This document shows, piece after piece, positions 20,454 through 30,147 of a stretch of DNA of 64,000 nt (position 1 is the first letter of the stretch; each line of letters opens with the position of its first letter). Where the stretch lies: positions 1 to 64,000 of the forward strand of contig NZ_BAEO01000002.1 in NCBI RefSeq assembly GCF_000314995.1, written 5' to 3'. Both the position numbers and the translations under genes were made by a program. Origin of the DNA: Paraglaciecola arctica BSs20135. Lineage in GTDB: Bacteria; Pseudomonadota; Gammaproteobacteria; Enterobacterales; Alteromonadaceae. Under the pieces are notes generated by a model. That model made no database searches. It saw only the letters and a list, made by a program, of their open reading frames with translations, and had not been told where the DNA came from.

Positions 20454-20533
20454 AAGCAAGCAGCCACCCCACTTACCTAAACTGGAAAATTTGTTTTTGT
20501 GTTTGGGAGGCGGAACTAAAGGCATTTACATTT

Positions 20534-20578
20534 AAACAGAACGCATTGAACAATAATGTTCAATGCGTTGCTGTTTTT
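20534..20578. terminator. bidirectional terminator between yicC and ridA
   Basis: AACGCATTGAAC and GTTCAATGCGTT form a perfect 12-bp stem with a 6-base loop, extended by AAACAG/CTGTTT with a small bulge; TTTTT follows on the plus strand and AAA precedes for the minus strand. It serves the convergent yicC and ridA genes. Confidence 0.9.
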
Positions 20579-20594
20579 ATACGATGATTCAATA

Positions 20595-20978
20595 TTAGTA
20601 GGCGGCAATGGCTTCTATTTCTACTTTTGAGCCAGGCAACATTAGCTGTGACTGAACAGTTGAACGAGCAGGGCGGTGATCACCTAGAAACTCTGCATAG
20701 GCCTTGTTGAATTCAGCAAAGTCATTTTTATCTGTTAACCAAATACCCAGTTTTACAATGTTATCTTTAGTGAGTCCTTCCTCTGCTAAGATGTTGGCAA
20801 TTTGTTTCAAGCACAGTGTTGTTTGTGTGGCGATATCATCGGTATTTAGTGTGCTATCTGTATTAAAGGCTAATTGCCCGGATACAAATAATAATTCACC
20901 CGCTTTATAAGCTTTTGAAAATGGAGCAACTTGGCCATTAGGTAAAGTAATTTTATCGCCAACTGGTTTAGTGTTCAT
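20595..20978 (-). CDS. ridA: RidA family reactive-imine deaminase
   Basis: A 127-residue RidA/YER057c/UK114 protein, normal length. RidA hydrolyses 2-imino acids, such as 2-aminoacrylate from PLP enzymes and imines from amino-acid oxidases, to 2-oxo acids and ammonia. The carboxylate-binding Arg is in RPARSTVQSQLMLPGSKVEIEAIA near the C-terminus; VSGQLAFN near residue 33 and the terminal Glu of KVEIEAIA fit the active subfamily. It lies 55 bases after the D-aminoacylase-like gene on the same strand, so it is probably the last gene of an operon whose oxidase makes exactly the imino products RidA uses. Confidence 0.9.
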   Translation of the reverse strand: MNTKPVGDKITLPNGQVAPFSKAYKAGELLFVSGQLAFNTDSTLNTDDIATQTTLCLKQIANILAEEGLTKDNIVKLGIWLTDKNDFAEFNKAYAEFLGDHRPARSTVQSQLMLPGSKVEIEAIAAY

Positions 20979-21033
20979 TGTATTTCCTAGTCTATTGTAT
21001 TAATAATTTTTAAGTGTGACTGGTACAGCCGTT

Positions 21034-22677
21034 TTATTTTCTAACGTTAATCTCTATTTGATCTAGTTTTCCAGTTTCTTGCACTGGAAAACGGATAGGT
21101 TTACCAGGGAACACTTTTTGTACTTTCGAATTTTCCACAACAACTGTGCCATTTACTAATACGTAGGGAATACCTGTGGAGGGCAGTGTGCCTTCTCCAG
21201 GGTTGAAAGTAGCGTTATCGGTGACAGTGGCAGGGTCGAATATAACTATGTCGGCATCAGCCCCCTGTTGCATACGACCTTTGTAACGAAAATCACTTAC
21301 ACCAGCAAATTCTTCCATATACTTTGCATGTAAATAACTCATTTTAGAAATGGCTTCCATTAAGGGCATAACGTTTTGTTCACGTACCAAGCGCAACACT
21401 TTAGCTCTAGTACCTGATGCTCTAGGGTGAACAGATTTGCCTTCATAGGGAGAGTCCCAAGGATAATATTCGCCTTTAGCATTTTGAACTGGCATACCAT
21501 CAGAGACGATCACCACACCGGGTGTTGATATCCATTCGCCAACTTGCTCTTCTGGGTTAACTTGGACAATGACAACACTTCCTGGATTATTTTTACGATT
21601 ATAGTCATAACTTTCTTTATCCCATGGTTTACCGCCAACACTGCGGATATCAGAATAAGTGATTCCTATTAATGGCAGTTGATCTTCATTTAGGATGGCA
21701 CTTGCAGCAATAGTAGAAGCAGCGCCGTAAGGATAGACTTCCCCCCATACTTTAGCTCCGCGTTTTTTAGCCGCATTAATTAATGGAATTGAGTATTCCC
21801 AATCTTGAATACTGTTGAGGTGTGCCGCTAAAAATGGCGCATCTAAAATCATCGCATTAGCCAACATCTCTTGAACGCCTAACATGCCTCCAGAAGGTGG
21901 CATAACACCTACAAAACGAGTATGTCCATTTGAAACACGGTTATATTGAGCCGTTAGCTCTTGATATTTGAACATTTCATATTGAGTTATTCCGTCTTTC
22001 ATATAGCCGACTGGAATACCGGTACCAATGGCGCCTTGACGTAACCCTTCATCGATATAAGCTAATATTTTTTCCAATTGCTGTTGTGAAGAAACAATAT
22101 GTGACCAGCCCATTTTGCGGTTTTCTTTTTTTGCTTTAGCTGCGGCAGCATATACCACCCCAGGGCCCAATAAATCGCCGGTATCATTACCGAGTGCTGC
22201 TATTTCTGGACCATCTAACACCGAGAGCCGAGCAAAAGCAGCATTAACAACCATGCCGTAATTGACTTGGGTTTTTCCTTTGGCATCGGCATACCATTTG
22301 CCAACATTGCCCGCTCCAGATTCTAAATCCAAAGAAGTAGTCAGCCCATCACGTAAACTTACCTTGCGACTAAATGGATCGGTTCCATGTTGATGGCCTT
22401 CAATAAACCCTGGTGCAACCACATGATTTTTAGCATTTATTTGTTTAGCACCTTTGATAGTTTCGCTGGTAATTATGGCAATTTTTCCATTTTTGATACC
22501 GACGTTTCTAATCCCATCAAAATTGGATTCGGGATCCATTACACGGCCGCCAACAATAACTAGATCGTATTTTTTGTCGCTAACACTATCGGCAATAGCA
22601 TGAACTGGAAACAATAACGCCGAGGCGACTGTTATCGGAATAGCTAACTTTTGTATTTTTAATTTGAGATGATTCAT
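21034..22677 (-). CDS. periplasmic N-acyl-D-amino-acid deacylase-like amidohydrolase
   Basis: A 547-residue amidohydrolase with a clear signal peptide (residues 1-29, HAIADS), so it acts in the periplasm. It has the D-aminoacylase layout: N-terminal small beta part (YDLVIVGGRVMDPESNFDGIRNVGIKNGKI), metal-binding HQH in GFIEGHQHGTDP, FLAAHLNSI with a further His, SDGMPV with the catalytic Asp, and the closing ADIVIFDPATVTDNATF block. Related enzymes split N-acyl-D-amino acids or D-glutamate derivatives; family members with HQH in place of the usual HTH exist, so exact substrate is open. It sits 32 bases after the YkvI gene. Confidence 0.85.
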   Translation of the reverse strand: MNHLKLKIQKLAIPITVASALLFPVHAIADSVSDKKYDLVIVGGRVMDPESNFDGIRNVGIKNGKIAIITSETIKGAKQINAKNHVVAPGFIEGHQHGTDPFSRKVSLRDGLTTSLDLESGAGNVGKWYADAKGKTQVNYGMVVNAAFARLSVLDGPEIAALGNDTGDLLGPGVVYAAAAKAKKENRKMGWSHIVSSQQQLEKILAYIDEGLRQGAIGTGIPVGYMKDGITQYEMFKYQELTAQYNRVSNGHTRFVGVMPPSGGMLGVQEMLANAMILDAPFLAAHLNSIQDWEYSIPLINAAKKRGAKVWGEVYPYGAASTIAASAILNEDQLPLIGITYSDIRSVGGKPWDKESYDYNRKNNPGSVVIVQVNPEEQVGEWISTPGVVIVSDGMPVQNAKGEYYPWDSPYEGKSVHPRASGTRAKVLRLVREQNVMPLMEAISKMSYLHAKYMEEFAGVSDFRYKGRMQQGADADIVIFDPATVTDNATFNPGEGTLPSTGIPYVLVNGTVVVENSKVQKVFPGKPIRFPVQETGKLDQIEINVRK

Positions 22678-22709
22678 ACTTTAAACCTTGAATAGAAAAA
22701 GAAGTTTTA

Positions 22710-23816
22710 TTAAATAGGTCTGTCTTGTTGAGTCATTAATTTATACACACCAATAGACAACACAGGCACTACAAATAAGGCGATAAAACCGTAAGTTAAC
22801 ACCCCATAACCTTGTGCAATTAAGTTAATCAAACCAAATTCATTACCTAAATAACTGGCTAACAATAAAAAACTTAAGGCGAGTGTGGGACGTAATGATT
22901 TTGGTAAAGGTTTATTCAAGTGCTGATAAGCAGCAGCTACACGCTCATTAACCGCATGTAATAATGCAGTACCTGTTTCAATGAAAGTACCAAAAATAAC
23001 AACATTAAAAACTAAGCTAAACCATGGTGAATCCAGTGCCGCCAAAACAGAGGTAACGGGTACACTTTCGTTTTCAATCGATGGATAAAATGCAACCAGC
23101 AATAGGTAAAAGCAAATACCAGGAATAATAGCCAACAGTCCAGCAAGTAAACCTGCTCCAATGGCTTCTTTGCGGCTAGATAGATGTCGAATACAAAATA
23201 AGATCGAAGGGATCACGGCTAAGTTATAACCCGCGTATTTTACACCACTACTAAACCAATCGGATGTGGCTATATCGTTGAGTGCAGGATCAGTCAATTT
23301 TGAGAATATAATATCTCCCCATTGGCCAAGCCCCCAATATAGAAAAATAAAATAAACCACATAAAGTACAAATGACCATGAAGCTAAAACCTTTTCAATT
23401 AGGTTGCTGCCATAAAAAGTAAGGAGGGTTATAGAAAACATCAAAACAGTAGTACCAACATAACTGGGTACATCGAATTGTGCTGCTACCATTTCACCCG
23501 AAGCTTTAGTGATAATAGCGAGTATCAAAAATAGTAGTGTTAGGTAACAAAGTTCAAATAACACCCAAGCTCGACCGAGCAATACTTGAAAAAAGGAACG
23601 GTAGTCATAACTCTTGAATACTCGTGATAATTCAAAAGTTACGGCGATAACAACACTCCATACAACTGTTGTTACAGCCATAGCAAGTAAACCTGCTAAT
23701 GGACCTAGATGCAGAAAAAACTCGACTAATTCCCTACCGGTTGCATATCCACCAGCTATTACTACGGATTGAAATAACAAACCCGGTAGTAAATATGTTC
23801 GGATAAACTTCATCAT
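22710..23816 (-). CDS. YkvI family membrane transporter
   Basis: A 368-residue integral membrane protein with ten or so hydrophobic segments, recognised as YkvI/COG3949. The N-terminus LLFQSVVIAGGYATGRELVEF is the family signature, with the unwound first helix typical of the APC/LeuT fold. TGTALLHAVNERV near residue 280 is another family block. Its substrate is unknown. Neighbouring genes make an amino-acid cargo likely: it begins 3 bases after the flavin oxidase stop and is followed by the periplasmic deacylase, so it may import the freed amino acid. Confidence 0.83.
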   Translation of the reverse strand: MMKFIRTYLLPGLLFQSVVIAGGYATGRELVEFFLHLGPLAGLLAMAVTTVVWSVVIAVTFELSRVFKSYDYRSFFQVLLGRAWVLFELCYLTLLFLILAIITKASGEMVAAQFDVPSYVGTTVLMFSITLLTFYGSNLIEKVLASWSFVLYVVYFIFLYWGLGQWGDIIFSKLTDPALNDIATSDWFSSGVKYAGYNLAVIPSILFCIRHLSSRKEAIGAGLLAGLLAIIPGICFYLLLVAFYPSIENESVPVTSVLAALDSPWFSLVFNVVIFGTFIETGTALLHAVNERVAAAYQHLNKPLPKSLRPTLALSFLLLASYLGNEFGLINLIAQGYGVLTYGFIALFVVPVLSIGVYKLMTQQDRPI

Positions 23817-23819
23817 CTT

Positions 23820-25004
23820 TTAATCCCCCTTATTAACGCCATCATGGCAACGAGCTGGAGAAGTAAATGTTTTGTCCATACCTAAGTCTGAAATATCTTT
23901 GGGAACATCTTGACCCATGACCAGTGCCGCTGCATACCTTCCAGTTGCTGGGGATGTTTGAATACCATAACCACCCACACCAGCTAACCAAAAGAAACCC
24001 TTTTTCTCGTCTGAATAACCTATGACAGGACTACGGTCTTCGACAAAAGTGCGAAGACCAGCCCAACTATGATTAACCTTTCGAATGGGTATCCCAAATG
24101 CTTGCTCAGCGTAATGCGCCGCATAAGCAACCTCTAACTCGTCTGGTTGAGCATCACAGGGTGGTGATAACGTTTCATCTGCTGCCGAAATGAGTAAACA
24201 ACCTGCATCGGGTTTGATATAAAAATTTTCTTCAAATTCTACCGCCATAGGCCACTCATCAGATTGATAAGTTTGTGCTGCATTTTTAGGCTTTGGGGTG
24301 TCAATTAACATAGCACTGCGGCGTAAAGGTTGAATGCCTAAGGGAGTTAATCCTGCCATTTTTGCAATACTATCTGCCCATGCACCGGCTGCATTGATGA
24401 CTACCGGTGCTTGGAAAGATTCTTGTTCATTAGTACTCGACACAGTAGATACTGTCCAAAGGTTATCCTTTTGAGTTACTTGGTCTACCCTTTGATTCGT
24501 TTTGATGACGGCGCCTTGTTTGCGCATGCTTTTTAAATACCCTTCTTGTAAAGCATGCACGTCAACATCGTAAACATTATCGTCATAGATAGCATTTTGA
24601 TTATATTCATTACAAAGTGCTGGGAGCTTTTCCTTCACGCTTTCTTGGTTAATAAACTTCAGATCTGGCACTAGGGTAAGCAACTTGTTATAGGCTGCTT
24701 TTAACTGTGTCTGCTTATCTTTTTCAGCAATCATTAACACCCCCCGATGCTTCAACAAAGGGTGTTCACAAAAGCCTTGCGGTGGCTGGTGGAAAAAATC
24801 ACTAGAGGCATTCGATAAGGAAAACAACGCTGGTCTATCACAGCCATGAAAAGGTGAAAATACCGCAGCAGAGCGGCCTGTCGCATGATAACCAGGGTGA
24901 CTTTCTTGCTCTAATAACAAAACAGTGGCGTGTTTTGACAATTGATAACCAACGGATAGACCCGTTATCCCACCTCCAATAATTATATAATCATATGCTG
25001 CCAT
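23820..25004 (-). CDS. FAD-dependent amino-acid oxidase/dehydrogenase (DAO family)
   Basis: A 394-residue flavoenzyme of the DAO (D-amino acid/glycine oxidase) superfamily. The N-terminal Rossmann motif YIIIGGGITGLSVGYQL binds FAD ADP; HATGRSAAVFSPFHG near 40-55 is the second FAD contact, and a C-terminal GVGGYGIQTSPATGRYAA closes the flavin site. No signal peptide is present, so it is cytoplasmic or membrane-bound. It would oxidise an amino acid to the imino acid; D-amino acids are suggested by the neighbouring D-aminoacylase-like gene. First gene of the minus-strand operon of four. Confidence 0.87.
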   Translation of the reverse strand: MAAYDYIIIGGGITGLSVGYQLSKHATVLLLEQESHPGYHATGRSAAVFSPFHGCDRPALFSLSNASSDFFHQPPQGFCEHPLLKHRGVLMIAEKDKQTQLKAAYNKLLTLVPDLKFINQESVKEKLPALCNEYNQNAIYDDNVYDVDVHALQEGYLKSMRKQGAVIKTNQRVDQVTQKDNLWTVSTVSSTNEQESFQAPVVINAAGAWADSIAKMAGLTPLGIQPLRRSAMLIDTPKPKNAAQTYQSDEWPMAVEFEENFYIKPDAGCLLISAADETLSPPCDAQPDELEVAYAAHYAEQAFGIPIRKVNHSWAGLRTFVEDRSPVIGYSDEKKGFFWLAGVGGYGIQTSPATGRYAAALVMGQDVPKDISDLGMDKTFTSPARCHDGVNKGD

Positions 25005-25376
25005 GAAAAATCCTCGACGATTGTGATGAGGTCTGGAATATTATGTTGAGGCATAATTAAAATGCCCTAGCAAACGTAAGATACCGACTTAATCAGTCCA
25101 TTAATTTGTAATCTTGATATTGGATGAATTTATAGGGGGTGTTGATGTAAGACACCGAATAAAAATAAATTATTTATCGTAAATGAGTCATTAAGCTCTA
25201 GATATTAATGGGTAAAATCCATTCAATACAAGATTTTAAAACACCCATTTACGATCATAAATTTTCCTATGTACAATTCACAAACAGTAGAAATATTGTC
25301 TGTAAATAACACAGAGAACTCACGTCTTCTTCGTTTATTTGTACTTAGAAGAACGTTTGTTCATACTTTTCTGTGA
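25005..25376. other. promoter region of the flavin oxidase operon
   Basis: A 372-base AT-rich gap between the oxidase gene start and the TonB-dependent receptor stop. It must hold the promoter of the minus-strand operon; GGA at suitable distance precedes the oxidase ATG, but no convincing -35/-10 pair was found. A short hairpin GGTGT/ACACC lies at about 25137-25154. Near the receptor stop there is an imperfect inverted repeat (25322-25330/25347-25356) without a T-run. No gene was seen. Confidence 0.5.
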
Positions 25377-27536
25377 TTACTCAAACATATATTTAAAATT
25401 AACACCGTAAGTAATTGGCTCACCATAGGTTACGCGGCGAGCCCCTAGCAAATTAAGATTGGTGTTACGTAAGTACTCATCATCAGCAATATTTTTCACC
25501 CATGCAGATAGTTGCCAATCTGCATTTTTACTTAGGTAAGTAATACGTGCATTAGCTGTTTTAAACGAATCTATTTCATCTGCCTCGCTGTTATTTGGGG
25601 TAGTGTATTGAGAGCTTGCATAGCTGTAATCAATGTTAATCGTTAACTCTCCGGTTGTTATTGGTACAAAGTATTCAGCACCGAAATAACCTTTAAAGTC
25701 TGGAGCGAATGTAAACTTATTACCTGAGTAGTCCTCATCACCTTGACTTAAAAACGTGTCATATCCAGTTTCTAAAAAAGTGGTATTTAAGGTAAAGGTT
25801 AGGTTGTCAGTTGCAATCCATACTGTTTCAAGTTCAAGACCAGAGGTGTGCGCTTCACCTGCATTTGTCAGTTGTACAGCAGGGTTTCCACTGGCATTAA
25901 AGGCCCGCTGAAATACTTGAAAGTTATCAATATCAGAGTAGAACACTGACGCATTCACTTTTAAGGTGTAATCGAGCATCATTGACTTAATACCAAATTC
26001 GGCATTGTTCATCGATTCAGTATCATAGGCAAAAAAATCTAAACCGTTAGTCATGAAGTCAGTATTCCAGCCACCACTTTTATAAGCACGTGATACTTTA
26101 CCGTATACCATTACATCGTTAGTGGCGAAGTAGTTAAGCCCAACTGTAGGTGACCAATTAGAGTCACTGAAATCATCTTTAAATACAGCATAATCAATTG
26201 CACCTAATGCGCCGCCAGGTAAATTTGCTGGTACATTAGGATCATTTGCAACGTTGTTTTGCTGCCAATTGACATTTTTTTCTTCATTGGTAAATCGTAA
26301 GCCAGCTGTTAGTTCCCAAAGTTCGTTAAAACGATAGTTTCCATGAACATATGCAGCGGTAGACGTATCATCGAGCGTAGTAGGGACTATGATTCTTCCG
26401 GCTACCGGGCCAACGAGATCTGCTCCAAGTTCGACATAACGATCACTTGATAAATTACTGTCAAAGTAATAAACACCAGCTACCCAGTCGTAAACATCAT
26501 TTTTTGGCGAGACTAATCTAAATTCTTGAGAGAGTTGCTCTGAATCTTCGTTAAATAAAACGCTTACTAGGTTTGCCCCACTATAATCATCATCACCCAT
26601 TGTCGCAAATGAGGCTTCTCGGTAGGCCGATATCGAAGTGAAAAGATAGTCATTGCCTAAATCGTAATTGACAGTTAAGGCCGAACCCCAGCTATCACTA
26701 TCGTCCTCTGTATTGAAATTAGCTGCAACATTAAACGCATCAGAACTTTCTGCTTGCGCTAGGGGCACTGCGCTGTGTTTGTCAGTCCAGTCAGCGGATA
26801 AGATAAATTCTAGTTTATCTGATGCGACATAACGTAGTTGTCCACGAGACGCCGAAGTATCCCAGTCTCCCGTGTTATTTTCTAAAAATGTATTCTTATA
26901 ATAGCCATCGGATGATTGATAAGAGCCTGAAATAGAGCCAAATAAGTTATTTGCCAGTTCACCAGAAACAAAAGCTGCAGTTTTGTAAGTTCCGTGATTG
27001 CCGGCTTCTACACTTACCTCACCTTCGAAGAATTCTGAAGGGCTACGAGTATTTAAACTTATCGCACCAGCAACTGTATTTTTACCAAACAGTGTTCCTT
27101 GCGGGCCACGCAAAACTTCTACACTTTCTAAGCCTAAAAGCGGCACATCGGCACTGTAAGAGCGCCCTTGAAATACACCATCGATGTATATGCCCATTCG
27201 AGAGTCGATGCCAGGATTACGTGCAAAATCAACTAAGCCACGAATACCCATTTGTTGTTGGCTACCCTTACCTAACCCCCCTAATTCAATAGAAGGACTC
27301 GATTGGTTTAAATCAGTTAATGTATCTGCACCAAGCTTTTCCATCATATCAGCAGTAAATGCTTGGGTAGAAATAGGTACTTTTTGCATGTTTTGTACAC
27401 GTTTTTGCGATGTTACTTGAATCACTTCAATTTGGCTGCCTTCTTTTTTACCTGAAGTATCTTGCGCTAATAATTGTCCTGAACAAAACAAGGCGCTAGT
27501 AACCGCCAAGCCTAATTTACACTTATAAAATTTCAT
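25377..27536 (-). CDS. TonB-dependent outer-membrane receptor
   Basis: A 719-residue receptor from the ATG at 27536, which has AGAGGA upstream; a longer start at 27578 would place the signal peptide internally and is rejected. Signal peptide 1-24 (GQLLAQ), TonB box IEVIQVTSQ near residues 35-44, plug domain (about 50-165, with VEVLRGPQGTLFGKNTVAGAI), and a 22-strand beta-barrel ending in VNFKYMFE with the terminal Phe-rich strand. The substrate is not readable. The barrel type is that of carbohydrate or siderophore receptors in general, but the adjacent oxidase operon and regulators suggest uptake of acylated or peptide-linked amino acids. Confidence 0.93.
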   Translation of the reverse strand: MKFYKCKLGLAVTSALFCSGQLLAQDTSGKKEGSQIEVIQVTSQKRVQNMQKVPISTQAFTADMMEKLGADTLTDLNQSSPSIELGGLGKGSQQQMGIRGLVDFARNPGIDSRMGIYIDGVFQGRSYSADVPLLGLESVEVLRGPQGTLFGKNTVAGAISLNTRSPSEFFEGEVSVEAGNHGTYKTAAFVSGELANNLFGSISGSYQSSDGYYKNTFLENNTGDWDTSASRGQLRYVASDKLEFILSADWTDKHSAVPLAQAESSDAFNVAANFNTEDDSDSWGSALTVNYDLGNDYLFTSISAYREASFATMGDDDYSGANLVSVLFNEDSEQLSQEFRLVSPKNDVYDWVAGVYYFDSNLSSDRYVELGADLVGPVAGRIIVPTTLDDTSTAAYVHGNYRFNELWELTAGLRFTNEEKNVNWQQNNVANDPNVPANLPGGALGAIDYAVFKDDFSDSNWSPTVGLNYFATNDVMVYGKVSRAYKSGGWNTDFMTNGLDFFAYDTESMNNAEFGIKSMMLDYTLKVNASVFYSDIDNFQVFQRAFNASGNPAVQLTNAGEAHTSGLELETVWIATDNLTFTLNTTFLETGYDTFLSQGDEDYSGNKFTFAPDFKGYFGAEYFVPITTGELTINIDYSYASSQYTTPNNSEADEIDSFKTANARITYLSKNADWQLSAWVKNIADDEYLRNTNLNLLGARRVTYGEPITYGVNFKYMFE

Positions 27537-27648
27537 GTATTCCTCTCGTGATAATTTGGGTGAGCGTTCAATTAACAAATGACTTAGCCATGCAAAGACA
27601 TACTTTGTTCAGACTAATTGATTGAAGATATTCACCCTACAGAATTTG

Positions 27649-27677
27649 TTGACTAGACAACGATACTTCACTAATCT
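27649..27677 (+). promoter_or_regulatory. candidate promoter of the AraC gene
   Basis: TTGACT at 27649-27654 and TAATCT at 27672-27677 with a 17-bp spacer. The -35 box overlaps a TTGT/ACAA inverted repeat. A start near 27684 would give a leader of about 140 bases that contains the short frame at 27738. Confidence 0.45.
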
Positions 27678-27737
27678 TAGTTTTGAAATGACATTTAAAT
27701 ACAAAAAACTGACATATTGCGAAACTTAGGTGAGTTT

Positions 27738-27812
27738 GTGAGCAATTTAGAACAAATACATATAGAAAAAATAGGCTCTCTATCTAACGAAGATATTAGC
27801 GACTTAAAATAA
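27738..27812 (+). CDS. possible 24-residue leader peptide
   Basis: A short frame beginning with GTG at 27738, with AGGTGA (27728-27733) at 4 bases spacing. Its TAA stop (27810-27812) runs directly into AAAGGAG, the ribosome-binding site of the AraC gene at 27826. The peptide is acidic with no membrane segment. The good ribosome-binding site and stop-to-site overlap suggest translational coupling with the regulator, but chance cannot be excluded. Confidence 0.35.
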   Translation: MSNLEQIHIEKIGSLSNEDISDLK

Positions 27813-27825
27813 AGGAGAACCTAAA

Positions 27826-28863
27826 ATGCCCACTAAATGGTTAAGAGCTTCCTTACTAAGTGGGATTGATAAAATACTGCTTGAACAATTTTCTTTATCT
27901 ATTTCACTATTAGAGAACGAAATAAATTTTGATTTCAATTTATTGAAAGATCCTGACTATAAGCTCCCCTTAACGACAGCTCTAAAAGTACTCGATGATT
28001 GTGCAAAGTATACAGGCTGTCAGTATTTTGGTGCATTACTGGCAAATGAACAAAACAATGACCATTTAAGTTTAATGTACTCATTAGCTAAGTCATGTAA
28101 TTCATTTGATGACGCATTATCAGTAGTTTTTGAGCAAAGGCTAAAAAGAACCAATGGATTTGAATGGCAACCTTCTAAAGATGAATTTAATGCCTATATT
28201 AAGTCACATATAGATGATATTTCGGGCATTGATACTACACAAGCCACTCTGTTTGGTATTATCAGGTTGTTTAAGTTTTTTAAAAATATCACTAAAAATA
28301 AATGGTGTCCGTCACAAATTTATTTTACTTTCCCCGCGCCTAACAATATCAAGTATCTTAAGAAAATACTGGGTGCAGACATCTATTTTAATATGAAATT
28401 CAATGGTTTTATCTTCCCAATTAAACAGTTGTCCCTTGAAATGAGTGGCCAGAACAGCAAGCTAAATACTGCGCTCAAGGATTTTTTAACCTTAACAGGT
28501 AAATCTTCTAATACGAATAAATTAACTCAAATTAAGCTATCCATTAGAAGTTTACTCATTTTAAATCAACGATGTACCTTAACTGATATCGCCGAAAGCC
28601 AACATCAAACCACAAGAGCGATTCAGTATTACTTAAAAAAGCATCAGCTGACTTATCAAAATCTACTTGATGGTGTTAGATACAATATAGCCAGAGATAT
28701 GCTGATTGAAACAGAGAATTCAATCTATAAAATATCTTCTTTGATTGGCTTTACTGATAGTACGGTTTTTACCCGCAGTTTTAAAAAACATGTTGGATTG
28801 TCTCCTACCAAATACAGACAGGAGTATCAGGATCTAAAACTTGGAAATAACTATATGCTCTAG
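27826..28863 (+). CDS. AraC family transcriptional regulator (Arabinose_bd type)
   Basis: A 345-residue regulator in the OruR/ArgR-like group: an N-terminal ligand-sensing domain of the Arabinose_bd type (about 15-200) and a C-terminal AraC double helix-turn-helix (about 240-340) with CTLTDIAESQHQTTRAIQYYLKK-type first helix pair (shown in two parts: CTLTDIAESQ, TTRAIQYYLK) and FTDSTVFTRSFKKHVGLSPT. AAAGGAG lies 9 bases before the ATG. It is divergent from the receptor gene, 289 bases away. A regulator of this group next to amino-acid catabolic genes often activates them with a catabolite as ligand; that is inferred here. Confidence 0.88.
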   Translation: MPTKWLRASLLSGIDKILLEQFSLSISLLENEINFDFNLLKDPDYKLPLTTALKVLDDCAKYTGCQYFGALLANEQNNDHLSLMYSLAKSCNSFDDALSVVFEQRLKRTNGFEWQPSKDEFNAYIKSHIDDISGIDTTQATLFGIIRLFKFFKNITKNKWCPSQIYFTFPAPNNIKYLKKILGADIYFNMKFNGFIFPIKQLSLEMSGQNSKLNTALKDFLTLTGKSSNTNKLTQIKLSIRSLLILNQRCTLTDIAESQHQTTRAIQYYLKKHQLTYQNLLDGVRYNIARDMLIETENSIYKISSLIGFTDSTVFTRSFKKHVGLSPTKYRQEYQDLKLGNNYML

Positions 28864-29018
28864 TGTTTAATCGCTGAATATATTCAAGTTACAACTAGTC
28901 CCCAGAGACGGCTTTATGTCCTTTTGTTTCTCTACTAATAAAAATGTTATTCTAGATAGGCTAGGGTTAACAACAGTCAATCGCCAAAATTCAGTCCGTA
29001 AAAGGAGTTATCGATATA

Positions 29019-29537
29019 ATGAGTGATGTGAAAATATTATCAGCAGCGCCAATACCTAAAAAAAGCAAAACTTATGTCACCGAAGATATGCCTACTGCGG
29101 TACATATCAGTTATCAAGTTACTGTTGTTTCAAATTTGATGGCATTTGGAAGTAGCCCTAAAAATGTTGAACAATTTGGTATTAATTTACGAGAATGGCG
29201 AGTAGTTGGGGCTCTAGGGAAAATGGGACCATTAACGGCTAAAAAGTTGGTCGATCTTATTCGTCAAGATAAGGCTAATATTAGTCGAGCTATAACAGAG
29301 CTATCTGCTAAAAATTATATTATTAAAATGCCTAATAATGCACATAAAAAAAGCCCTTTTATATGGTTAACTACAGAAGGACTGGCCTTGTATGACACTA
29401 TTTATCCAACATTTACTCAACAAGCTGAAATGTTTGCCTCTGTGCTTTGTGAACAAGAACAAAGGCTGTTGTGCCAACTATTAGATAGACTAAAAGACAA
29501 CACCGAAAAAGTACGCAAGGAACAAGAGTTAGATTAA
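29019..29537 (+). CDS. MarR family transcriptional regulator
   Basis: A 172-residue winged-helix repressor-like protein. The recognition part has LTAKKLVDLIRQDKANISRAITEL (helix 3-4 region), followed by the wing KNYIIKMPNNAHKKSPFIWLTTEG, typical of MarR proteins. The first 30 residues are an extension not usual in the family. AGGAG precedes the ATG by about 10 bases. It lies downstream of the AraC gene in the same direction, 155 bases away, and may be a second regulator of the amino-acid island, possibly sensing an aromatic or acidic ligand; no operator was identified. Confidence 0.88.
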   Translation: MSDVKILSAAPIPKKSKTYVTEDMPTAVHISYQVTVVSNLMAFGSSPKNVEQFGINLREWRVVGALGKMGPLTAKKLVDLIRQDKANISRAITELSAKNYIIKMPNNAHKKSPFIWLTTEGLALYDTIYPTFTQQAEMFASVLCEQEQRLLCQLLDRLKDNTEKVRKEQELD

Positions 29538-29918
29538 GAAATAAATTTTCATCCTGTAAAACTAAACCTAGCCCTCTTGCTTGAGCAGTTAAAGGGATAT
29601 GAATTGCACAAGCATACGAACTAAACGAATAATTTTGCCTCTTTGATAACTACAGTTGTACAACAAAATGATAGGCTCCTTTGCTTAACTCAAAAATAAT
29701 TAGCAATTTTTTGTCAACTATCTTTACAACTTTCTAACCACAAGATCACAATTTTGGTCTACCTTATTGAATTATAGTATTAAAAAATTGTTGGCTTAGT
29801 TTTTGATTATCTTTTAGAGTGCGGCTATGTAAATGCGTTAAGCATTTTACTTATATTTGCAAGCCTGTCGCGATATGTGTCAGGGTGTTTTTAGCGTATT
29901 ACTGGTTAAGATGTACAG
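29538..29918. other. noncoding gap, 381 bases
   Basis: No gene was found. The stretch is AT-rich. It contains an imperfect hairpin, GTAAATGC/GCATTTTAC, at about 29829-29855, and a weak CCTG/CAGG hairpin followed by GTGTTTTT near 29865-29895, which might be a terminator or attenuator just ahead of the small protein gene. No -35/-10 pair stood out. Confidence 0.4.
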
Positions 29919-30101
29919 ATGTCTTGTTTAACTCGAAAATTGCAGCAGAAACTCACGCGTTACGTACAGAAAAACAGCTCTCGTTTTTTGTCTAATGATC
30001 CTGAATATATTCATGAAGAATTGGTTAATAAGGGGGTGTGTCCCTCGGATGTGACCACTGACCAGATTATAATCATATTAAAAGAAGCAAAGGTTAGTTA
30101 A
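29919..30101 (+). CDS. small hypothetical protein, 60 residues
   Basis: A short gene of unrecognised family. The predicted protein is basic in its first 22 residues (RKLQQKLTRYVQKNSSR) and acidic later, with two cysteines and a C-terminal helix-forming segment DQIIIILKEAKV. There is no membrane span or signal peptide. The start ATG has only a modest upstream AAGATG. It ends 46 bases from the convergent HD-GYP gene. The coding status is likely but not certain; a regulatory or DNA-binding role would be speculation. Confidence 0.5.
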   Translation: MSCLTRKLQQKLTRYVQKNSSRFLSNDPEYIHEELVNKGVCPSDVTTDQIIIILKEAKVS

Positions 30102-30147
30102 AAAGTTTTGCGGAACTTTAAGTTCTTTTGCTTTTTCCAGATTGGTA

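Follow-up and report, generated by a model that had tools for sequence, protein, structure and literature searches.

Gene content of the island

The DNA analysed here (the window) is a stretch of 64,000 nucleotides from Paraglaciecola arctica BSs20135 (contig NZ_BAEO01000002.1, positions 1 to 64,000). Downstream of yicC, it contains an island of seven genes. A minus-strand run of four encodes a RidA-family protein, an amidohydrolase (AH), a putative carrier and an enzyme dependent on flavin adenine dinucleotide (FAD), and the remaining three encode a TonB-dependent receptor and two regulators. The features are as follows.

20595..20978, minus strand: RidA-family imine/enamine deaminase (PF01042, 9e-32)
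21034..22677, minus strand: AH of the D-aminoacylase type (NF006560, 403.1 bits against a cut-off of 340)
22710..23816, minus strand: putative inner-membrane carrier (no Pfam/NCBIfam model; predicted APC/LeuT-type fold)
23820..25004, minus strand: DauA-type FAD-dependent D-amino acid dehydrogenase, by homology (PF01266, DAO; phmmer 1.2e-90 to DauA, 3nyc)
25377..27578, minus strand: TonB-dependent outer-membrane receptor (PF00593, 1e-33; PF07715, 3e-17)
27826..28863, plus strand: AraC-family regulator, divergent from the receptor gene (PF12625 and PF12833)
29019..29537, plus strand: MarR-family regulator (PF12802)
20540..20569, plus strand: terminator-like inverted repeat with a T-run, between yicC and the RidA gene (weakly supported)

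Within the run, the genes are separated by 55, 32 and 3 bases, and the receptor gene lies 372 bases upstream of the FAD enzyme gene. The original prediction, made from the DNA alone, had described a run with this order and these gaps (20595-25004), adjoined by the receptor and the two regulators; the open reading frames (ORFs) sit as claimed, and the positions and Pfam/NCBIfam families of the three adjoining genes agree. Terminator-like sites in the region are not in excess (5, versus a mean of 7.2 in shuffles), and promoter-like sites are no commoner than in shuffled sequence.

Predicted functions of the island proteins

The AH falls within NF006560 and is predicted to work like a D-aminoacylase. 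The claim of a D-aminoacylase-like enzyme with a signal peptide was thus borne out by the NF006560 score and, by eye, by an N terminus that reads as a Sec signal peptide. The best matches of its family profile were, in order, the N-acyl-D-Glu deacylase 3gip (2e-59), D-aminoacylase and OngB. An AlphaFold model was built from 26 sequences, with a predicted local distance difference test (pLDDT) score of 87.6. As assessed with Foldseek on this predicted model, the nine best matches are all of the D-aminoacylase type (3gip, D-aminoacylase entries, OngB and a Klebsiella D-acylase), which favours the original assignment. Template modelling (TM) scores were 0.81 and 0.80 (by target length) against 3gip and the D-aminoacylase 1m7j, at 21-22% identity. 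There is a marked step from the last deacylase (1e-27) to the first allantoinase (2e-18); this gap, together with NCBIfam dihydroorotase models far below their cut-offs, led us to reject a dihydroorotase or hydantoinase identity. All 26 sequences share H95, H97, H252, H286 and D393. These residues align with the HxH, His, His and Asp of 1rjp, which we take to be the metal ligands and catalytic Asp of D-aminoacylase (D366 also appears in a PDB title). The bridging Cys, presumably C96 of D-aminoacylase, is not conserved: the AH has Ser120 there, and the neighbouring Glu119 is invariant in the 26 sequences.

The FAD enzyme is homologous to DauA over its full length (residues 5-386). It had been labelled an FAD amino-acid oxidase; the DAO family stands, and "oxidase" proved imprecise, the best solved relative being a dehydrogenase. 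DauA has been described as acting strictly as a dehydrogenase, on every D-amino acid except D-Asp and D-Glu, with an active-site set of H48, Y53, E87, R222, E246, Y249 and R305 (PMC11193025). The window's enzyme keeps R222, E246, Y249 and R305, and the other three are changed (H48 to V48, Y53 to H53, and E87 to V89). Because three of the seven differ, we call it DauA-type rather than a D-Arg dehydrogenase. D-Arg is for the same reason an unlikely cargo, and a D-arginine-specific route was rejected. By kinship, the enzyme would be a dehydrogenase rather than an oxidase, acting on D-amino acids in a less polar pocket that is not tuned to D-Arg.

Four plasmid loci with relatives of this enzyme (43-45% identity) were inspected. 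In the Phyllobacterium locus, the relative is accompanied by D,D-dipeptide ABC genes and by an "amino acid deaminase"; the one in Variovorax has genes for RidA, a membrane dipeptidase, a serine hydrolase, a beta-lactamase-family protein and an S9 peptidase; and the one in Azospirillum has no comparable neighbours. On the Sulfitobacter alexandrii plasmid (L227:5941-13068; L numbers denote comparison stretches), the DauA-like gene comes first, followed by genes for a TRAP transporter, an M81 metallopeptidase, an amidohydrolase and a CobW GTPase, which are gene kinds that recur around some amidohydrolase arrays.

The RidA label held, with a PF01042 match and an Arg in the PAR motif that aligns with Rid-family structures and is presumably the essential Arg of RidA. 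With TIGR00004, the protein scores 99.3 bits, below the cut-off of 106.25, and so falls short of the RidA subfamily proper. An essential Arg has been reported for RidA, and Rid genes cluster with those of FAD amine oxidases (PMC4433059); some Rid proteins deaminate the imine released by DauA (PMC5619798). A RidA gene close to that of the FAD enzyme fits both of these latter observations.

The carrier, which we take to be of the YkvI/COG3949 family, had no match at E ≤ 0.001 in Pfam or NCBIfam. A model built from 5 sequences (pLDDT 72.4) gave 20 Foldseek matches at E ≤ 0.001, the best being MhsT (3e-5) and AdiC (1e-4), with TM scores of about 0.44-0.63; Nramp, CHT1 (choline), LAT1 and BasC also matched below 0.001. 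This suggests a transporter of the APC/LeuT-type fold, in a model whose pLDDT is only 72. At E ≤ 1e-20, carrier homologues were found in 3 of 369 class-sample and 3 of 398 phylum-sample genomes, the window's own counted in both, and they are frequent in one other order (66/296 genomes). In a tree, the window's carrier groups first with that of L144 and then with that of L150. The former is the closest homologue (57%) and has a 44% relative of the MarR regulator divergent from the carrier gene. In L150, a TonB receptor is followed by RidA, carrier and DadA.

By eye, the likely true start of the receptor is an ATG at 27536. Its best NCBIfam match is a siderophore receptor model, below cut-off (156.3 of 223.5 bits). 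Receptor relatives lie near AH genes in L048 (48-49%) and, as a 37-38% fragment, in L077. The latter stretch, from gammaproteobacterium NOR5-3, shows a transposase-like ORF (by eye) upstream of the short TonB-receptor fragment, which adjoins the carrier gene (L077:5493-8844).

Many carrier homologues lie near D-amino acid genes

The surroundings of the carrier were sampled in 60 stretches holding 61 of 74 homologue places, from 56 genomes and 19 genera with many near relatives, and neighbours were counted within 10 kb. As controls, we used 20 stretches at round, not random, coordinates in 20 of the same genomes, and counted a match anywhere in the stretch. The reference proteins for DgcN, dipeptide epimerase, serine hydrolase and membrane dipeptidase were taken from carrier loci on plasmids, none of them among the 60 stretches. 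DgcN was near the carrier in 38 stretches, a DauA-like gene in 1, and either in 39. DadA was found in 12, using a reference from L152, itself one of the 60, that was chosen once DadA had already been noticed in four of them; this brings the stretches with any of the three to 48. None of the 20 controls had any of these. By genus, DgcN is present in 12 of 19 and any of the three in 14 of 19. AH (19/60), RidA (4/60), dipeptide epimerase (30/60) and serine hydrolase (33/60) were likewise absent from the controls. A second deacylase type (23/60) and membrane dipeptidase (18/60) were each found in one control, and a TonB receptor (31/60) in two. Together with the recurrence described below for L080 and L081, the counts of DgcN and DauA-like genes near carrier homologues relative to controls show a linkage beyond chance.

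Several of these loci combine the same kinds of genes differently. L030 brings together receptor, DgcN, epimerase, carrier and AH; L111 has a receptor and a deacylase near the carrier; L112 reads HyuB-HyuA-RidA-carrier; and the order receptor-DgcN-carrier is found in L133 and on three sphingomonad plasmids, which also carry a dipeptide epimerase gene. Among haloarchaea, DgcN is near the carrier in L137, L138 has HyuA/HyuB and a 26% match to the FAD enzyme, L140 has HyuB, and a maleate isomerase gene adjoins the carrier in L139 and L140. L142 gave no match with the neighbour references used. In eight stretches (L149, L150, L152, L153, L156, L161, L162 and L170), a group of carrier homologues sits directly beside DadA-type dehydrogenase genes.

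A pathway for acidic D-amino acids has been described with DgcN (DUF1611) as its key gene (PMC12363236). No match to the DgcN model, PF07755, was found at E ≤ 0.001 in the window's genome. We lean, by a small degree of confidence, towards the reading that this carrier family serves specifically to import D-amino acids across the inner membrane in Gram-negatives and haloarchaea and forms the fixed core of swappable scavenging cassettes. On that reading, the receptor, the releasing hydrolase (deacylase, dipeptidase or hydantoinase) and the consuming enzyme (DgcN with epimerase, DadA or DauA-type, with or without RidA) would be exchanged according to cargo, the window holding the version with DauA and RidA.

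Recurrence of the gene set

Named genomes were scanned for the full set via the AH query only, and among the loci found in this way none besides the window has all five genes. Two gammaproteobacterial metagenome-assembled genomes (L080 and L081) hold in one row RidA (52-53%), AH (37-40%), an XRE/cupin regulator, DAO (35-37%) and carrier (32-33%), and their stretches have no match to the window's receptor. An ORF-based count over the named AH loci found carrier in 5, DAO in 2, RidA in 4 and receptor in 3.

The nearest AH relatives occur in another setting, among 2-5 paralogues that are mostly head to tail (L034-L041 and L019, e.g. L038:6239-16605). Such arrays are present in Lutibacter, Algoriphagus, Pseudohalioglobus, Alcanivorax, Seongchinamella, Bythopirellula, Roseibium and Ferrimonas; several have DUF3299 and beta-lactamase-fold genes, and three have M81/MlrC genes. 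Because these relatives lack the island partners, the AH was perhaps recruited from such an array, and its substrate is perhaps peptide-like. The window's genome has a second amidohydrolase gene (23% to the window's) beside a Rid-family gene (31%) on contig 58 (L032:9241-11160).

The island occupies a variable site

In 18 other genomes of the genus, tblastn of the site downstream of yicC found none of the RidA, AH, carrier, FAD enzyme, AraC and MarR genes (0/18). In 3 of the 18 stretches, there is a 26% receptor match on the far side of the HD gene. This HD gene, which comes next after the island in the window, was recovered in 16 of them. No ORF of at least 90 amino acids is kept between yicC and the HD gene in L116, L122 and L126; in L128, the gene after HD comes next to yicC; and the remaining genomes have from one to about 12 other ORFs in between. 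In this genus, the site following yicC varies in content (window 20454-30147; L113-L130), with other cargo or none. Because the run is absent from it in all 18 genomes, it looks like an inserted cassette. Among 295 genomes of the order, the FAD enzyme has a homologue at E ≤ 1e-40 in one, the window's own, and the AH in 13, the window's own included. A scan of viral contigs with the FAD enzyme gave no match.

Discussion

The island is probably a horizontally acquired catabolic cassette for N-acylated or peptide-bound D-amino acids. The TonB receptor would bring the compound across the outer membrane into the periplasm, where its N-acyl (or N-aminoacyl) group would be removed by the AH, presumably an exported enzyme. 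The free D-amino acid would then enter the cytoplasm through the APC/LeuT-fold carrier and be converted to the imino acid by the DauA-type FAD dehydrogenase, which would pass the electrons on, not to oxygen. RidA would speed hydrolysis of the imine to the 2-keto acid and ammonia, and the AraC and MarR proteins may control the island. Fold, homology and comparative context favour the chain of deacylase, carrier, FAD enzyme and RidA as first proposed, with the oxidase replaced by a dehydrogenase. The same logic with swapped parts, as suggested by the gene content of L080/L081, L150, L112 and the three sphingomonad plasmids, supports the cassette.

Several observations weigh against this assignment. 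Since L080 and L081 are near-copies of each other, they give the four-gene set one independent recurrence; as this counts once, and as DadA was picked post hoc, our confidence in the cassette is reduced. For the deacylase, the expectation that the genes are usually found together fails: by tblastn, 74 named AH loci (42 of them at least 18 kb) have carrier in 4, DAO in 2, RidA in 3 and receptor in 3. The eight nearest AH relatives (63-68%, 2-5 AH genes per stretch) have none of these four partners nearby, and of 12 further AH-bearing genomes in the order sample, 1 has the carrier near the AH. The carrier's substrate cannot be read from its fold, since metal and choline transporters also match, and only one of the 60 stretches has a DauA-like gene close to the carrier. 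Eleven of the 60 (6 full-length, 5 short contigs) lack any D-amino acid reference, although by eye L195 shows an ORF resembling fold-III D-amino acid enzymes and L185 an Asp/Glu-racemase-like ORF. The plasmid homologues in Rhodococcus (L141) and Paraclostridium (L143) also have no D-amino acid neighbour. In the study on DauA, it was Rid2/Rid3 and not RidA/Rid1 that deaminated iminoarginine (PMC5619798), and the window's Rid protein is of uncertain subfamily. The least certain link is the receptor's membership in the unit, given the 372-base gap and the presence of a receptor in 2 of 20 controls.

A doubtful, although tenable, alternative is that the cassette scavenges D-residue peptides, such as peptidoglycan stems or non-ribosomal peptides, the AH being a D-specific peptidase-like deacylase whose N-acyl group is an amino acid. 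The richness of carrier stretches in dipeptide epimerases, serine hydrolases and membrane dipeptidases relative to controls would fit this, as would the beta-lactamase-fold and M81/MlrC genes in the arrays of several of the closest AH relatives and the peptidase genes of the Variovorax locus. However, genes for a peptidase, dipeptidase or epimerase are absent from the island itself, and the best structural matches of the AH are named for N-acyl-D-amino acids.

We regard it as unlikely that receptor and run are unrelated neighbours, the receptor serving a siderophore or other cargo and the unit comprising only RidA, AH, carrier and DAO. The intergenic gap, measured from the receptor stop to the DAO start, the siderophore model as best NCBIfam match and the lack of a receptor match in L080/L081 are in keeping with it. 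They are countered by the receptor relatives near AH in L048 and L077, and by receptor matches within 10 kb of the carrier in about half of the stretches versus 2 of 20 controls.

Very improbable is a role with oxidised amino sugars, in which the AH would be an N-acetylglucosaminic acid deacetylase like OngB and the island a relative of the ong cluster. That cluster comprises a TonB receptor, a symporter, the D-aminoacylase-like OngB and the RidA-family OngD (PMC9537276), and OngB structures are among the top AH fold matches. However, 3gip and 1m7j, two D-amino acid deacylases, outscore OngB, although not by much, the FAD enzyme would have no role, and the genome has the separate amidohydrolase-Rid pair on contig 58. 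This reading was rejected, with no PLP (pyridoxal phosphate) deaminase, sugar kinase or hexosaminidase found by Pfam in the seven island genes. Degradation of peptidic siderophores found no support, the term amidohydrolase being absent from the available text of PMC11800396.

To our knowledge, Gram-negative import of D-amino acids is poorly mapped. D-Amino acids are an important part of slowly degraded dissolved organic matter (PMC12363236). As judged by titles, with subscription journals mostly outside coverage, we found no published function for the YkvI/COG3949 carrier family; the neighbourhood data point to a specific one, D-amino acid import.

Comparison with known systems

For gammaproteobacterium NOR5-3, a 2012 paper proposed that a TonB receptor encoded next to a D-aminoacylase gene serves N-acyl-D-amino acids (PMC3400609), and the island likewise has a receptor and a D-aminoacylase-type gene together. 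D-aminoacylase and RidA are also named in a paper on Paraglaciecola (PMC7014002). The NOR5-3 locus L077, possibly the published pair, combines a receptor fragment with a carrier homologue and an AH relative. Unlike the island, it has no DAO or RidA match, and its receptor fragment is short and follows the transposase-like ORF.

In the oxidised-chitin route of Pseudoalteromonas prydzensis (PMC9537276, PMC12017989), the ong cluster shares with the island a TonB receptor, an inner-membrane symporter, a D-aminoacylase-like deacetylase and a RidA-family protein. It differs in its sugar-acid substrate, a PLP deaminase instead of an FAD dehydrogenase, a sodium solute symporter and cytoplasmic deacetylation. 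Pseudomonas DauA and Rid (PMC5619798, PMC11193025) provide the same pairing of an FAD D-amino acid dehydrogenase with a Rid imine deaminase, whereas in the island the dehydrogenase differs at the three active-site residues, and a deacylase and a carrier are adjacent.

Genomes with the DgcN D-glutamate pathway (PMC12363236) share the carrier family, with TonB receptors and deacylases beside DgcN; in the window's genome, DUF1611 is absent, and the island has a dehydrogenase and RidA instead. Finally, 3gip and 1m7j resemble the AH in predicted fold and in the aligned HxH, His, His and Asp, while the AH differs in its low identity to them, in Ser for the bridging Cys and in its apparent signal peptide. 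The combined set had been thought possibly undescribed. The five genes were indeed seen together nowhere else, but the cassette is a variant of the kinds described for NOR5-3 (PMC3400609) and ong (PMC9537276), and what is new, judging from gene neighbourhoods, is a putative D-amino acid role for its carrier family.

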